Assembly (NCBI GenBank): GCA_025060415.1
Contig: JANXBT010000001.1
Location: forward strand, 130,313 to 194,312
DNA length: 64,000 bases
Source of the DNA: Candidatus Bipolaricaulota bacterium
GTDB taxonomy: Bacteria > Bipolaricaulota > Bipolaricaulia > Bipolaricaulales > Bipolaricaulaceae
Direction: 5' to 3'
Shown here piece by piece: positions 53,814 through 59,011 of this stretch (position 1 is its first letter; every line of letters begins with the position of its first letter). The translations under genes were made by a program, and so were the position numbers. The notes below the pieces were generated by a model that saw only the letters and a list, made by a program, of their open reading frames with translations, was not told where the DNA came from and did not search any database.

Positions 53814-53843
53814 CGCCCGAGGGCGGAGGAGGCCGCGCCCCTT

Positions 53844-54602
53844 ATGGCGGAACTCTTGCGCATCGAGGGCCTGGTGGTGGAGCGGGAGGGAAGGGCCATC
53901 CTGCGCGGGGTGGACCTAGCCGTGGCGGAGGGCGAGATCCACGCCATCCTGGGCGCCAACGGCACGGGGAAGTCCACCTTGGCCCACGCCCTCATGGGCC
54001 TTTCCGGGTACCGGCCGGCCCGGGGCCGCATCCTTTTTGCTGGGCAGGACATCACCGAAAAGAGCGTGACCGAGCGGGCGCGCCTGGGGATCACCTTGGC
54101 CTGGCAGCAGCCCGCGAGCTTCGAGGGCCTGACCGTGCGGGAGTACCTGGAGATCGCCCGGCGGGGCGGCCGGGAGGGCCCGGCGGTGGAGGAGTGCCTG
54201 GCCCGGGTGGGGCTGCCCCCCCGAAACTACCTCGGCCGCACCCTCAACGACCGCCTCTCCGGCGGGGAGCGGAAGCGCGTGGAGTTGGCCGCGGTCTTGG
54301 CCATGAACCCGCGGCTGGCCATCCTGGACGAGCCGGACTCCGGGATCGACGTGCTTTCCCTTGACGACATCATGGAGGTCATCCGGGGCATGAACCGCCG
54401 CGGCACCACCGTCCTCCTCATCACCCACCGGGAGGAGTTCGCTCGGGCCGCCCACCGCGCCTCCCACCTCTGCGGCGGCCGCATCCTCAAGACCGGGGAC
54501 TGCGCGGAGGTGGTGCGTTTCTACAAGGACTTCTGCAAGGAGTGCGCGTCCCTCCCCGCGCCGGAGCTGGAGGAGGTGGGGCAGGATGAGGGACGGCGTT
54601 GA
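53844..54602 (+). CDS. sufC: Fe-S assembly ATPase SufC
   Basis: SufC is the ABC-type ATPase of SUF iron-sulfur cluster assembly. The 252-residue product has Walker A GANGTGKST, the Q-loop region WQQPASFEGLTV, signature LSGGERKRVELAAVL and Walker B LAILDEPDSGIDV. The EPDSGID segment is typical of SufC. It precedes the sufB/D-like gene, which overlaps its end by 17 nt. No sufS, sufU or sufE is found in the window, so the sulfur donor must come from elsewhere or the system works differently. SufC here also resembles SmsC of the minimal SUF-like system. Confidence 0.94.
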   Translation: MAELLRIEGLVVEREGRAILRGVDLAVAEGEIHAILGANGTGKSTLAHALMGLSGYRPARGRILFAGQDITEKSVTERARLGITLAWQQPASFEGLTVREYLEIARRGGREGPAVEECLARVGLPPRNYLGRTLNDRLSGGERKRVELAAVLAMNPRLAILDEPDSGIDVLSLDDIMEVIRGMNRRGTTVLLITHREEFARAAHRASHLCGGRILKTGDCAEVVRFYKDFCKECASLPAPELEEVGQDEGRR

Positions 54603-55551
54603 GCGCGACCCTTCCCGGGAGTTCGCGGCCTTGGCGGAGGCCGTGGAGCGGACCGGCGGCAGCGCCGCGGCCCTGCGCAACCCCCGCATCGCCAGCCTCG
54701 TGGTCCACCAAAACCGCGTGCTGGGCCTCAACGCCCTCCCCGGGCTCACGATGGACGCGGAGCCCTTGCCCGACGGGATCCGGGCCCACGTGGAGGTCGC
54801 GCCCGGGACGGTGCTCCCCGATCCCGTGCACCTCTGCTTTGGCGTCCTGCCGAAGGAGGGGGTGCAGCGCATCCTCGCCACGTTTCGCATCGGGGAGGGC
54901 GCCAGCGCGCAATTTTGGGCCCACTGCGCCTTCCCCAACGCCGAGAGGGTCCAGCACCTCATGGAGGCCTCGATCGAGGTGGGCGGCGGGGCGCGGATGG
55001 CGTACACCGAGGTGCACTACCACGGCCCCTACGGCGGCACGGAGGTTTTGCCCAAGGCCGTGATCCGGGTGCACAAGGGCGGCCAGTACGTCTCGGAGTT
55101 CAAGCTCGTCCAAGGGCGCGTCGGCCTCTTGTCCCTGGATTACGTGGTCCACCTCGGGGAGGGGGCGGTGGCCGAGCTCGTGGCCAAGGTGCACGGGAAG
55201 GGGGAGGACCGCATCTTCCTGCGCGAGGCCCTCCATTTGGAAGGCCCCTACGCCCGGGGCCTGGTGAAGAGCCGCATCGTTCTGCAGGACCGGGCCCAGG
55301 CGGAGTTCACCGGGGAGGCCGTGGGGATCGGCCCCTATTCCCGTGGGCACATCGATTGCACGGAGATCCTGTGGGGGGCGGAGGCCCGGGCCTCCGCCGT
55401 CCCCAAGCTCCTTGTGGTGGACGAGCGGGCCAAGCTCACCCACGAGGCGGCCATCGGCAGCATCGACCGCAAGGAATTGGAGACCCTTATGGCCCGCGGG
55501 CTCACCGAGGAGGAGGCCGTGGCTACGGTGGTGCGGGGCCTGTTGCGCTGA
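54586..55551 (+). CDS. Short SufB/SufD-family scaffold (SmsB-like)
   Basis: The 321-residue product has the SufBD core: a beta-helix region (FRIGEGASAQFWAHCAFPN, VRLHKGG-like VIRVHKGGQYVSEFKLVQG, given in part) and the C-terminal block THEAAIGSIDRKELETLMARGLTEEEA (in part THEAAIGSI). It is much shorter than SufB (about 470) or SufD (about 420) because the N-terminal region is reduced. Only one SufBD gene is present, so a homodimer would replace SufB-SufD, as in the SUF-like minimal system (SmsCB). It overlaps sufC by 17 nt. Confidence 0.87.
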   Translation: MRDGVERDPSREFAALAEAVERTGGSAAALRNPRIASLVVHQNRVLGLNALPGLTMDAEPLPDGIRAHVEVAPGTVLPDPVHLCFGVLPKEGVQRILATFRIGEGASAQFWAHCAFPNAERVQHLMEASIEVGGGARMAYTEVHYHGPYGGTEVLPKAVIRVHKGGQYVSEFKLVQGRVGLLSLDYVVHLGEGAVAELVAKVHGKGEDRIFLREALHLEGPYARGLVKSRIVLQDRAQAEFTGEAVGIGPYSRGHIDCTEILWGAEARASAVPKLLVVDERAKLTHEAAIGSIDRKELETLMARGLTEEEAVATVVRGLLR

Positions 55552-55603: not shown

Positions 55604-56668
55604 ATGCGAACAGTCCTGGTGAGCTTGTTGGTTTTGGGGGCGGCCCTCGCCGGGCTTGCGGCCCCAAGGCTCCAGGTGGATCGCGAGCTTTTCGACTTCG
55701 GCGTGGCCGCGGACGGCGAGGTGGTGGAGTTCCTCGTGACCCTCACCAACGTGGGCACGCAGCGGCTCTCGATCCAGCGCGTGCAGTACAACTGCGCCTG
55801 CACCAGCTACGAGCTCCCTAAGCGCGAGCTCAACCCGGGCGAATCCGTGCAGATGAGGATCCGCTTCAACACCCGGGGCTACAGCGCCTACCCCCAGCCG
55901 GTCGCGCAGACCTTGACCCTCTACACCAACGATCCCGTCCGGCCCCAGGTGACGCTCACCGTGCGGGGCACCGTGCGCACCCTCTCCGGCGTGGAGGCGC
56001 CCGCCGCCTCCCTCTATCAGGGCCTCTACCTCCTTTTGGACGTGCGCGAGCCCGCGGAGTTCGCACGGGTGCGCCTCCTTGGGGCGTTGAACGTGCCGCT
56101 GAGGGAGCTCGAGGCCTGGGCCGAGCGGCTCCCCAAAACCCATGTGATCTACGTCTACGACGAGACCGGGGAGCGGAGCGCGCAAGCCGTGGCGCTGCTC
56201 CAGCGGAAGGGGTTCCTGCTCGTGCGGGCCATCCGCGGGGGCCTTGTGGGCTGGTGGCAGGAGCTGGGCGACCTCTTCCTCGTTTGGGGCGAGGGGGTGA
56301 CGCCCACCCCGCCCCAGGGCCCGGCGTTCCCCGGCGCAGGCTTCACGGAGACCCCCTCCCGCGTGGCCCGGAACTTCACGGTGGTGGTGGACGTGCGCCG
56401 GCCCGAGGAGTTCAAGGCCGGCCGCATCGCCGGTGCCCTCAACGTCCCCTTGTTCACCATGGAGGAGCTCGTGGCCTGGGCGAAGGCCCTGCCCCTCCCG
56501 CGCCCGGGGTACGCCCTGCACCTTTGGATCGTGGACGAGGAGGGGACCCGCGCCTGCTCCATCGCGGCCTACCTGCGCAACCAAGGGTTCGCGGACGCCA
56601 AATGCCTGTTCGGCGGGATGCGCTCCTGGACGAACCAATACGGCGCGGAACTCCTTTGGTCGTTCTGA
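55604..56668 (+). CDS. Secreted DUF1573 protein with two Cys-to-Asp rhodanese-like domains
   Basis: The 354-residue product has a signal peptide (VLVSLLVLGAALAGLAA), a DUF1573 domain (residues ~20-125) with the NCACT motif (Cys64, Cys66), and two rhodanese-like domains. The first is at ~145-225 (LLLDVREPAEF ... YDETGERS), the second at ~265-350 (VVDVRRPEEF ... VDEEGTRA). The catalytic cysteine position is aspartate in both (Asp186 and Asp311), so sulfur transfer by the normal persulfide route is not possible there. SD AAAGGAGGAGG precedes ATG 55604. It follows sufB by 52 nt and leads the thiol-redox genes. Its role may be binding of a sulfur or metal species. Confidence 0.85.
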   Translation: MRTVLVSLLVLGAALAGLAAPRLQVDRELFDFGVAADGEVVEFLVTLTNVGTQRLSIQRVQYNCACTSYELPKRELNPGESVQMRIRFNTRGYSAYPQPVAQTLTLYTNDPVRPQVTLTVRGTVRTLSGVEAPAASLYQGLYLLLDVREPAEFARVRLLGALNVPLRELEAWAERLPKTHVIYVYDETGERSAQAVALLQRKGFLLVRAIRGGLVGWWQELGDLFLVWGEGVTPTPPQGPAFPGAGFTETPSRVARNFTVVVDVRRPEEFKAGRIAGALNVPLFTMEELVAWAKALPLPRPGYALHLWIVDEEGTRACSIAAYLRNQGFADAKCLFGGMRSWTNQYGAELLWSF

Positions 56669-56686: not shown

Positions 56687-57145
56687 ATGCGCGCCCTTTG
56701 GGTAGCGGGTTTGCTTTCGGCTTGGGCCCTCCTCGCCCCGGCGGGGCAAGTGGAGCTCGTCTTCTTTGGCTCCGCGACCTGCCCCGACTGCTACCTGATG
56801 AAGGAGTTCCTGGCCGAGCTGGTCCGGGACTACCCGTCCCTCAAGGTCGTGGAGTACGAGGTCACCTTCCATCCGGAGAACTGGCGGCTCATGGTCACCC
56901 TGGCCCGGGCCTACGGGCTCACGAGGGAGGCCGTGCCCATGGTGTTCGTGGGCGAGCTGGGGATCAGCGGGGTGGGCCGGGCGGTGGAACTCCGGATCCG
57001 CGAGGAGGTGGAGCGCTGCCTGGCCCGGGGATGCCCCTCCCCCCTCGCGCGGCTGCCCGAGAAAAGGGCCCGGGTGCTGAGCCCCCTGGAGCTCGCCCTG
57101 ATCCTGGGGGCGGCCGTGGTGCTCCTCCTTTTCCTGCTCCGATGA
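56687..57145 (+). CDS. Exported thioredoxin-fold protein with CPDC motif and C-terminal anchor
   Basis: The 152-residue product has a signal peptide, a thioredoxin-like domain (ELVFFGSATCPDCYLMKEF, CPDC at residues 32-35, with cis-proline region EAVPMVFVGE) and a C-terminal helix (LALILGAAVVLLLFLLR). It is probably anchored with its thiol site outside. SD CTAAGGAG lies 6 nt before ATG 56687. The gene overlaps arsC as ATGA. A thiol reductant or oxidant role outside the membrane fits the adjacent CcdA-type protein, which resembles it in its first domain. Confidence 0.82.
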   Translation: MRALWVAGLLSAWALLAPAGQVELVFFGSATCPDCYLMKEFLAELVRDYPSLKVVEYEVTFHPENWRLMVTLARAYGLTREAVPMVFVGELGISGVGRAVELRIREEVERCLARGCPSPLARLPEKRARVLSPLELALILGAAVVLLLFLLR

Positions 57146-57555
57146 GGAAAACACGGGTTCTGTTCTTGTGCACCCATAACTCCGCGCGCTCCCAGATGGC
57201 CGAGGGGCTCCTGCGGGCCCTCGGTGGGGACCGGTTCGAGGTGGCAAGCGCTGGCCACCGGCCCACCCAGGTGCATCCCCTCGCCGTGCAGGCCATGGCG
57301 GAGATCGGCATCGACATCTCCGGCCAGCGCGCCAAACCCGTGGCGGAGTTCCTGGGCCAGACGTTCGACTACGTGGTGACCCTCTGCGGCGACGATGCGC
57401 CGGGGTCCTGCCCCTTCTTCCCGGGCGGGCGGCGCTACCTCCACAAGCCCTTTCCCGACCCCTTCCGCGGCGGGCTTGAGGAGTTCCGGAGGGTGCGGGA
57501 TGCCCTCCGGTCCTGGCTGGAAGAGACCTTCCTGAGGGAGGCGGGCGATGCGTAG
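57142..57555 (+). CDS. Thioredoxin-coupled arsenate reductase/LMW phosphatase-like ArsC
   Basis: The 137-residue product has the P-loop FLCTHNSARSQMAEGLL with nucleophile Cys10, and later cysteines Cys82 (TLCGDD) and Cys90 (GSCPFF). These match the catalytic triad Cys10/Cys82/Cys89 of S. aureus pI258 ArsC. It would reduce arsenate with thioredoxin, or act as a related phosphatase. No arsR, arsB or acr3 is adjacent; instead thioredoxin-like genes flank it on both sides, and both flanking junctions overlap. Cytosolic location is expected from the absence of a signal peptide. Confidence 0.9.
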   Translation: MRKTRVLFLCTHNSARSQMAEGLLRALGGDRFEVASAGHRPTQVHPLAVQAMAEIGIDISGQRAKPVAEFLGQTFDYVVTLCGDDAPGSCPFFPGGRRYLHKPFPDPFRGGLEEFRRVRDALRSWLEETFLREAGDA

Positions 57556-59011
57556 GATCCTGGTTTTGGGCCTCGGCCTGGCGGTAGGCCTTTGGGGCCT
57601 GGCGGTGGAGGTCTTGTTCTTCTACGACGAGGGCTGCCCCTACTGCAAAGAGGTTTGGGGGTTCCTGAACGAGCTCCAAGCCCGGGGGCTGGCCTTCGCC
57701 CTCAAGACCTACGAGGTCCGGAAGCCTGAGAACTGGCAGCTTCTGTATCGGCTGCTGGCGGTGTACGGGGCGGAGGTGGGGCCCGTGCCCCTGATCTTCG
57801 TGGGCGACGTGGCCATCGTGCACGACACGTTCTATGGCCTCGGGCCTCGGCCCCAGAAGTACGTGGGGCTTGCCCACCAGCTCGCCCTCGAGGAGGTGAT
57901 CCGGCGGGCGGTGGCAGAGGGCGCGCCCTCCCCCCTCTCCCGGCTTCCGCCCACGGCCACCACCGCCGTCCTCTTCCTCCCCCCCGGGGAGACGCCCGAA
58001 GCCCTCTTTTACGCGGCCCTGGGGGCCCAGCTCGTCGCGGAGTTCCCCGCCCTGAGCCTGCAAGTCCTGGACCCCACCACGGCGGAGGGGCGGGACCGGT
58101 TCGAGAAGGTGGCGCGCCTGTACGGCGTGCGGGGGGAGCCCCCGGCCCTCTTCGTGGGCGACCTCGCCCTCCTTGGGGGGAAGCTCTACCCCCTCCGGAA
58201 GGATCCGCTCCCCTATCCCAGCGCGGAGGGCGAGCGGGCCCTGCGGGAGGGAATCGCCAAAGCCCTCGCGGAGCGGGCGCCCTCGCCCCTGGAGCGCCTG
58301 GCCCTGCGGGAGAAGCTCACACTGGGGGCGGTGGTGGCCGGCGCGGCCCTGGACTCCGTGAACCCCTGCGACCTTGCGGTCCTCGTGCTCCTTTTGGGGA
58401 CCTTGCTCGTGGTGGGGAAGCGCACGAAGGTGCTGTGGGCGGGCCTGGCCTTCGCCGCCGGCGTCTTCGTCACCTACTACCTCACGGGCTTCGTCCTCTA
58501 TTCCCTCCTGGGGATCACCGTGGGCGCGCGCTCCTTCCGCGCGCCCTTCATCTACGCCGTCTCCTCCCTGGCCATCCTCGTGGGGCTTTGGGAGATGAAG
58601 GACCTCCTTTGGTACGGGAAGTGGTTCTCCATCGAGGTGCCCGAGAGCTGGAAGCCCTCGGTGAAGCGGATCACGGCTAAGGCCATCTCCATCCCCGGGG
58701 CGTTCGTGGTGGGCCTCATCGATGCCCTGTTCCTTGCGCCCTGCACCTCCGGGCCGTACCTCGTGATCCTAACCCTCCTTTCGCAGACCACGACGCGGCT
58801 GCAGGGGGCGCTGTGGCTCCTCCTTTACAACTTCATCTTCATCCTGCCCATGGTGGCCGTGGCCGTGCTCGTGCACCTTGGGCTGACGACCACGGCCCGG
58901 GCCGAGCGCTGGCGCCAAGCGCGGCTGGGCTGGCTCCACTTCAGCACGGGGCTGGTGATGGTGCTTTTGGGCGTGGGAATGATCGTGGGGACGAGCTTGG
59001 GCTACCTCTGA
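57548..59011 (+). CDS. Two thioredoxin-like domains fused to a CcdA-type membrane domain
   Basis: The 487-residue product has a signal anchor and a first thioredoxin-like domain with CPYC (residues 30-33). A second thioredoxin-like domain at ~125-235 has lost its active-site cysteines (LPPGETPEALFYAAL). A membrane domain of about six helices follows, with cysteines at residue 274 (SVNPCDLAV) and 399 (LAPCTSGPY), as in CcdA/DsbD, which carry electrons across the membrane. GGAGG lies just before ATG 57548, which overlaps arsC by 8 nt. Unlike DsbD, the periplasmic thiol domains are N-terminal and duplicated. It ends in a 10-nt overlap with the ABC gene. Confidence 0.88.
   Translation: MRRILVLGLGLAVGLWGLAVEVLFFYDEGCPYCKEVWGFLNELQARGLAFALKTYEVRKPENWQLLYRLLAVYGAEVGPVPLIFVGDVAIVHDTFYGLGPRPQKYVGLAHQLALEEVIRRAVAEGAPSPLSRLPPTATTAVLFLPPGETPEALFYAALGAQLVAEFPALSLQVLDPTTAEGRDRFEKVARLYGVRGEPPALFVGDLALLGGKLYPLRKDPLPYPSAEGERALREGIAKALAERAPSPLERLALREKLTLGAVVAGAALDSVNPCDLAVLVLLLGTLLVVGKRTKVLWAGLAFAAGVFVTYYLTGFVLYSLLGITVGARSFRAPFIYAVSSLAILVGLWEMKDLLWYGKWFSIEVPESWKPSVKRITAKAISIPGAFVVGLIDALFLAPCTSGPYLVILTLLSQTTTRLQGALWLLLYNFIFILPMVAVAVLVHLGLTTTARAERWRQARLGWLHFSTGLVMVLLGVGMIVGTSLGYL

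Follow-up and report, generated by a model that had tools for sequence, protein, structure and literature searches.

An open reading frame in the Bipolaricaulota genome G000 (contig C11) encodes a 354-residue protein in which a DUF1573 domain is followed by two rhodanese domains, each with Asp at the position of the catalytic Cys (55604–56668). All coordinates without a locus name refer to the + strand of the window, the 64 000-nucleotide stretch of DNA that was analysed. Sequence comparison within the phylum indicates that this Asp is a trait of a DUF1573–rhodanese family and is maintained by selection, not drift, because Asp186 of the first domain is invariant in homologues that have the loop and control rhodaneses mostly carry Cys. 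Given this conservation and the frequent placement of the gene in arsenic-resistance and thiol-redox operons, the DUF1573–Asp-rhodanese protein seems to be an accessory component kept by selection and not a defunct enzyme. What appeared to be a dead tandem rhodanese is thereby placed in a conserved family whose context can be tested, and the unexplained DUF1573 domain is connected with thiol-redox and arsenic operons. The family also supplies many natural examples of a rhodanese loop that is preserved except for Asp in place of Cys, through which the purpose of inactive rhodaneses could be put to a direct test.

The architecture was assigned from the translation, Pfam and an AlphaFold model built on 73 homologues (pLDDT 95, pTM 0.84). 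The N-terminus reads MRTVLVSLLVLGAALAGLAA. Residues 1–20 (55604–55663) are a probable Sec signal peptide or N-terminal anchor without a lipobox Cys, modelled as a helix over residues 2–16, and with this Sec-type hydrophobic N-terminus the protein is probably secreted. The DUF1573/PapD-ASH-like domain comprises residues 24–124 (55673–55975; Pfam PF07610, E = 9.1e-18, 64.5 bits against the Pfam cut-off of 26.1). It retains the NCACT motif reported in the initial annotation at residues 63–67 (55790–55804), with a CxC pair formed by Cys64 (73 of 73 homologues) and Cys66 (72/73), followed by Thr67 (69/73). The Pfam rhodanese match (PF00581, E = 3.8e-28) is split into two stretches corresponding to domain 1 (residues 140–219; 56021–56260) and domain 2 (residues 258–349; 56375–56650). 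The rhodanese fold is recovered by Pfam, AlphaFold and Foldseek, and no HAD family was matched by the window protein in the Pfam search. Foldseek aligned the model with tandem rhodaneses and with PapD/ASH-like domains, including HYDIN and 2qsv; the family profile likewise matches 2qsv in the DUF1573 part. In domain 2 a disulfide is predicted between Cys318 and Cys334 (codons 56555–56605), since the two covary almost perfectly: both are present in 31 of the homologues, one in 1 and neither in 41 (Fisher p = 8e-20, uncorrected for relatedness). Such a bond would fit an oxidising site outside the cytoplasm.

The initial annotation had read Asp for Cys in both active loops, and the translation, Pfam and the model agree. 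The loops are VYDETGERSA with Asp186 (codon 56159–56161) and IVDEEGTRAC with Asp311 (codon 56534–56536). In the model, strand 181–185 of domain 1 leads through loop 186–189 into helix 190–201; the equivalent elements of domain 2 are strand 305–310, loop 311–314 and helix 315–326. Each Asp is the first residue of its strand–helix loop and thus stands exactly at the Cys position, and neither active loop contains a Cys in the translation or in the AlphaFold model. Active sulfurtransferases have Cys first in the loop (Cx4R/T), a feature absent from the window protein; nor does it have the Cx5R loop of the Cdc25/Acr2 type, as there is no Cys and the loop Arg is not conserved. It corresponds to an inactive rhodanese fused to an unrelated domain (class 4; PMC10135228), here with both units inactive.

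A profile constructed from the three G000 copies found matches in 82 of 100 Bipolaricaulota genomes (E < 1e-10), part of which span the DUF1573 domain or one rhodanese only. Stop codons of all three kinds (TGA, TAG and TAA) occur alike within some matches; they were taken as run-on past the ends of shorter proteins rather than as selenocysteine. Residue conservation was assessed in 73 two-rhodanese homologues with 28–73% identity to the window protein, which are related sequences whose counts are not independent events. Asp186 is present in 70 of the 73 and the other three have loop deletions, so that it occurs in every one of the 70 sequences in which the loop exists; gaps aside, position 186 is one of 13 among 354 columns without variation. 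Asp311 is found in 65 of the 73 (89%), the others having Ser (5), Gly (2) or Cys (1), and all exceptions lie outside the protein's own family, f1. Conservation as strong as that of Asp is seen for the DxR motif and for the GG and Trp of the rhodanese fold; the canonical loop Arg, at position 191, falls among the most variable columns. In loop 1 a second carboxylate is not conserved (Glu187 43%, Thr188 47%). Loop 2 is acid-rich (DEDG), with Glu or Asp at position 312 in 57 of the 73 homologues and Asp or Glu at position 313 in 51.

Several family members depart from this pattern. The paralogues L014 1434–2489, L070 2965–4047 and L073 2731–4032 have a first loop two residues shorter, from which the Asp is gone (VYGGE). 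Shorter members with a single rhodanese also have Asp, with the exceptions of L075 and L095 (Cys), L102 (Gly) and L106 (Ser). The genes L075 955–1719 and L095 6838–7329 encode DUF1573–rhodanese proteins whose loop still has its Cys (YCLxGARS) and are natural controls for the Asp form. Members of f9 (e.g. L084 2986–3681 and L091 2211–2927) have a first loop reading YDQDGSLSD or YDQDGTLSD, like HAD motif I. A second subfamily, named here after the G000 paralogue on contig C33 (L012 1793–2908, L049–L052, L120, L124 and L126), has a CGCT motif and is not linked to ars genes; its loops (e.g. YVCDEAGE and YCVDEGE) place a Cys one or two residues ahead of the Asp.

Other rhodanese domains of the same phylum served as a control: among 40 regions, 27 gave Cys and seven Asp, several of the latter being misaligned. 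Where Asp or Gly replaces Cys in them, it is chiefly in N-terminal units of classical tandems (with Asp in L181, L182 and L186), and the partner unit usually has Cys. G000 itself (91% complete) gave six rhodanese matches, all in DUF1573–rhodanese proteins, and no Cys rhodanese was detected among them. The initial annotation had taken the shared replacement in both units as a sign of selection rather than random decay. The invariance of Asp186 where the loop is present upholds selection, but counting the two units as a double selection is not supported, since the common Asp may stem from duplication of one Asp domain. This source is suggested by a poorly resolved domain tree in which some f9 proteins (e.g. 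L094 and L096) have both Asp units close together. In f1 the two units form separate groups, and the tree is too short to settle the origin of the window units.

Upstream of the window copy are a SufC-like ATPase (53835–54602; ABC_tran), a conserved neighbour in its own genus (L011, L015 and L134), and, immediately adjacent, a short SufB/D-type protein (54586–55551; SUFBD_core, E = 1.5e-20). This pair stands directly upstream of the family gene in L011, L015, L134 and the window (53835–55551), and in L011 and L015 it lies inside an ars operon. ArsC, thioredoxin and CcdA-like genes adjoin the window copy downstream (56687–59011). They encode a small thioredoxin-like protein with a CPDC motif and a C-terminal hydrophobic segment (56687–57145; weak DSBA/glutaredoxin matches below cut-off), a homologue of ArsC-type arsenate reductases with the LMW phosphatase fold (57148–57555; Pfam LMWPc, E = 8.7e-22) and a membrane protein combining thioredoxin-like and CcdA/DsbD_TM parts (57548–59011; Pfam DsbD_TM, E = 1.6e-7, over cut-off); the thioredoxin-like and CcdA-type proteins are recurrent neighbours. 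The ArsC orthologue in L013 matches TIGR02691 with E = 9e-28, below the cut-off of that model. Neither ArsR nor the arsenite efflux pump ACR3 is found beside the window copy; they are present in L112, L113, L135 and others. Within G000, ACR3 occurs only on contig C34 (L011), a 13 kb contig with the order ArsR-ArsP-Thioredoxin_3-SufC-SufBD-DUF1573/rhodanese-ACR3-Trx, and the family protein inside this ars operon is 73% identical to the window protein. The GC content of C34 is 58%, versus 71% for the window. C34 may be contamination binned into G000, its likely source being a related species, and the conclusions are independent of it.

Among relatives the Trx, ArsC and Trx-CcdA set of the window recurs, accompanied by ArsR, ArsP, Thioredoxin_3 and ACR3. 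The typical f1 order is ArsR, ArsP, Thioredoxin_3, (SufC, SufB/D in its own genus), DUF1573–rhodanese, ACR3, Trx, ArsC, Trx-CcdA. In f9 the order is ArsR, ACR3, DUF1573–rhodanese, Trx-CcdA in L086 and DUF1573–rhodanese, ArsR, ACR3, ArsC, Trx-CcdA in L083. As gene order differs between f1 (L112, L113) and f9 (L083, L086, L097), the link is more than inherited order. A thioredoxin-like or Trx-CcdA gene lies within 5 kb of 60 of 106 family gene places, and an ars marker within the same distance of 40; in 35 of the 106, including the G000 paralogue on C33, no ars, Trx or metal marker was found in flanks that are often short. Comparison of coordinates by hand placed 19 of the 50 ACR3 loci in the phylum (matches above the family cut-off) within 5 kb of a family gene, against well under one expected from random placement, as estimated from the gene count and the size of the genome. 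DUF1573–rhodanese genes adjoin a heavy-metal P-type ATPase in L080, L087, L072 and L129–L131, and mercuric-reductase-like genes in L080 and L087. The link of the DUF1573–Asp-rhodanese protein to thiol redox and arsenic handling is concrete yet unproven.

We give an even chance to the reading that the protein is an exported accessory of an extracytoplasmic thiol-redox/arsenic system, in which a redox-active or metalloid-binding CxC is combined with rhodanese modules that have no catalytic activity and serve for docking. The retained Asp with loss of the loop Arg and the recurrent thioredoxin and ars neighbours speak for this reading; the third of family places without a marker and the lack of ACR3 or ArsR next to the window copy speak against it. 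The transfer of reducing power to the outside is a known task of CcdA/DsbD-type proteins. The DUF1573–rhodanese protein would be exported by the Sec route and would belong to a thiol-redox system outside the cytoplasm, one for which ars operons are a frequent setting. Its chemically active site would be the CxC pair of DUF1573, a dithiol that is redox-active or binds As(III) or a metal and is held in the reduced state by the adjoining thioredoxin-like and Trx-CcdA (DsbD-type) membrane proteins. Such a site is made likely by the near-invariance of CxC together with the occurrence of selenocysteine at the first Cys of the motif (UGC) in some DUF1573 proteins (PMC9312934; PMC13188914). With Asp replacing Cys in both loops the rhodanese domains cannot carry a persulfide. 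Their part may instead be to dock thioredoxin-like partners or some other protein; rhodanese domains that lack catalytic activity are seen as modules for protein interaction (PMC10135228). From the known fold we infer that the carboxylate of Asp probably occupies the cradle, made of backbone amides and the N-terminus of the helix, in which a Cys persulfide or an anion is normally held. The pocket would then be permanently filled, the loop rigid and the next helix capped. A more far-reaching reading, which we hold tentatively and consider doubtful, is that Asp-loop rhodaneses with a selected specific role, together with a reducible DUF1573 dithiol, make up an undescribed, exported, phylum-wide branch of extracytoplasmic arsenic/heavy-metal detoxification. 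The specific role might be recognition of CcdA-linked thioredoxins or a metal/metalloid site.

Were the conserved Asp purely structural, the rhodanese pair would be a passive spacer for DUF1573 and the ars link incidental. The frequency of Asp in inactive rhodanese domains generally (PMC6272796; also the N-terminal domains of L181, L182 and L186) and the loop-deleted paralogues in L014, L070 and L073 are in keeping with this, but the adjacency of 19 of 50 ACR3 loci and the conservation of DxR, GG and Trp at the level of Asp make it rather unlikely. Cation binding by the Asp loops (Ca2+, Mn2+ or a heavy metal), as in an exported metal-sensing or metal-binding protein, had been raised in the initial annotation. 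We consider it unlikely as an account of the family: the invariant Asp lies in loop 1, which has no second conserved carboxylate, although the acid-rich loop 2, the DxDG loops of f9 and the loci that have heavy-metal P-type ATPase and MerA-like genes as neighbours speak for it, and for loop 2 such binding is possible. Rhodanese loops present backbone amides and favour anions, which is a further point against a cation. The companion suggestion of sulfur-oxyanion binding is disfavoured, because the loop Arg (191) is lost and the charge of Asp would repel an anion.

A catalytic role for the Asp was considered and set aside as very improbable. On this account it would be a new nucleophile or general base of HAD type, and the proteins would be Asp-based phosphatases or arsenate-processing enzymes. 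The resemblance of f9 loops such as YDQDGTLSD (DxDGTL) to HAD motif I prompts the idea, and the rhodanese superfamily does include Cys-based phosphatases and arsenate reductases (PMC10135228). However, no HAD family was matched in Pfam, the Thr after Gly is not conserved, the window loops read DETG and DEEG, and the remaining HAD motifs would need to arise anew. Random decay of a former tandem sulfurtransferase would account for the absence of Cys from both units, but it is exceedingly improbable in view of an Asp186 retained in 70 of 70 loops at 28–73% identity, intact reading frames and phylum-wide presence. The conservation of Asp186 refutes decay for domain 1; domain 2 varies in f9.

In a scan of genome contigs the full architecture was found only in Bipolaricaulota, the absence elsewhere being weak evidence as two short patterns were used. 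A tblastn search of plasmids gave four matches, which were confined to rhodanese parts and each fell short of 80% coverage of the query, and no match was obtained in phages or viral contigs. The initial annotation had regarded the architecture as undescribed. The combination of DUF1573 with two Asp rhodanese units was indeed not found in the searchable literature, where searches for DUF1573 plus rhodanese led to selenoproteome reviews only, but the replacement itself is known: inactive rhodanese domains with Asp or Gly for Cys have been described (PMC6272796), and PA2603 (1YT8) has Asp loops.

PA2603, a four-domain rhodanese of Pseudomonas aeruginosa, is the best PDB sequence match of the window protein (E = 9e-38). 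Asp loops occur in its first and third rhodanese domains (VYDDGEG and LVDDDGVRA), but each of these precedes a Cys domain (NCAGRTRS and TCGSS), and it has no DUF1573 match. The two-domain TST/MPST enzymes, such as bovine rhodanese (1ORB), are likewise tandems with an inactive N-terminal unit in which Cys is often Asp or Gly (PMC6272796; PMC10135228). They differ in having the catalytic Cys in the C-terminal unit and no DUF1573, and the pair superposes poorly on the window model (r.m.s.d. of about 20 Å for both units in Foldseek). The OS_HP2 (seleno)protein family (NF041425) shares PF07610 and the CxCT motif, whereas the window protein scores 58.6 bits against its cut-off of 100 and is fused to rhodaneses. 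TsoB, a rhodanese/DsbD fusion-like selenoprotein (NF045694), similarly connects rhodanese with DsbD-like functions, and there is a TsoR of the ArsR type; TsoB contains Sec and has no named DUF1573, and NF045694 matched two of the 73 family members weakly. Known ars operons with CcdA/Trx resemble the relatives, which combine ArsC, Trx, CcdA-like and Thioredoxin_3 genes with ACR3, ArsP and ArsR; the difference is the added DUF1573–Asp-rhodanese gene and, in its own genus, the SufC–SufB/D genes. Compared with PA2603 and the classical tandems, the difference is that both units have Asp, in a chain without any catalytic rhodanese. The protein is built from known kinds of domain, and the ars/CcdA/Trx operon is of a known type to which the DUF1573–rhodanese part has been added.
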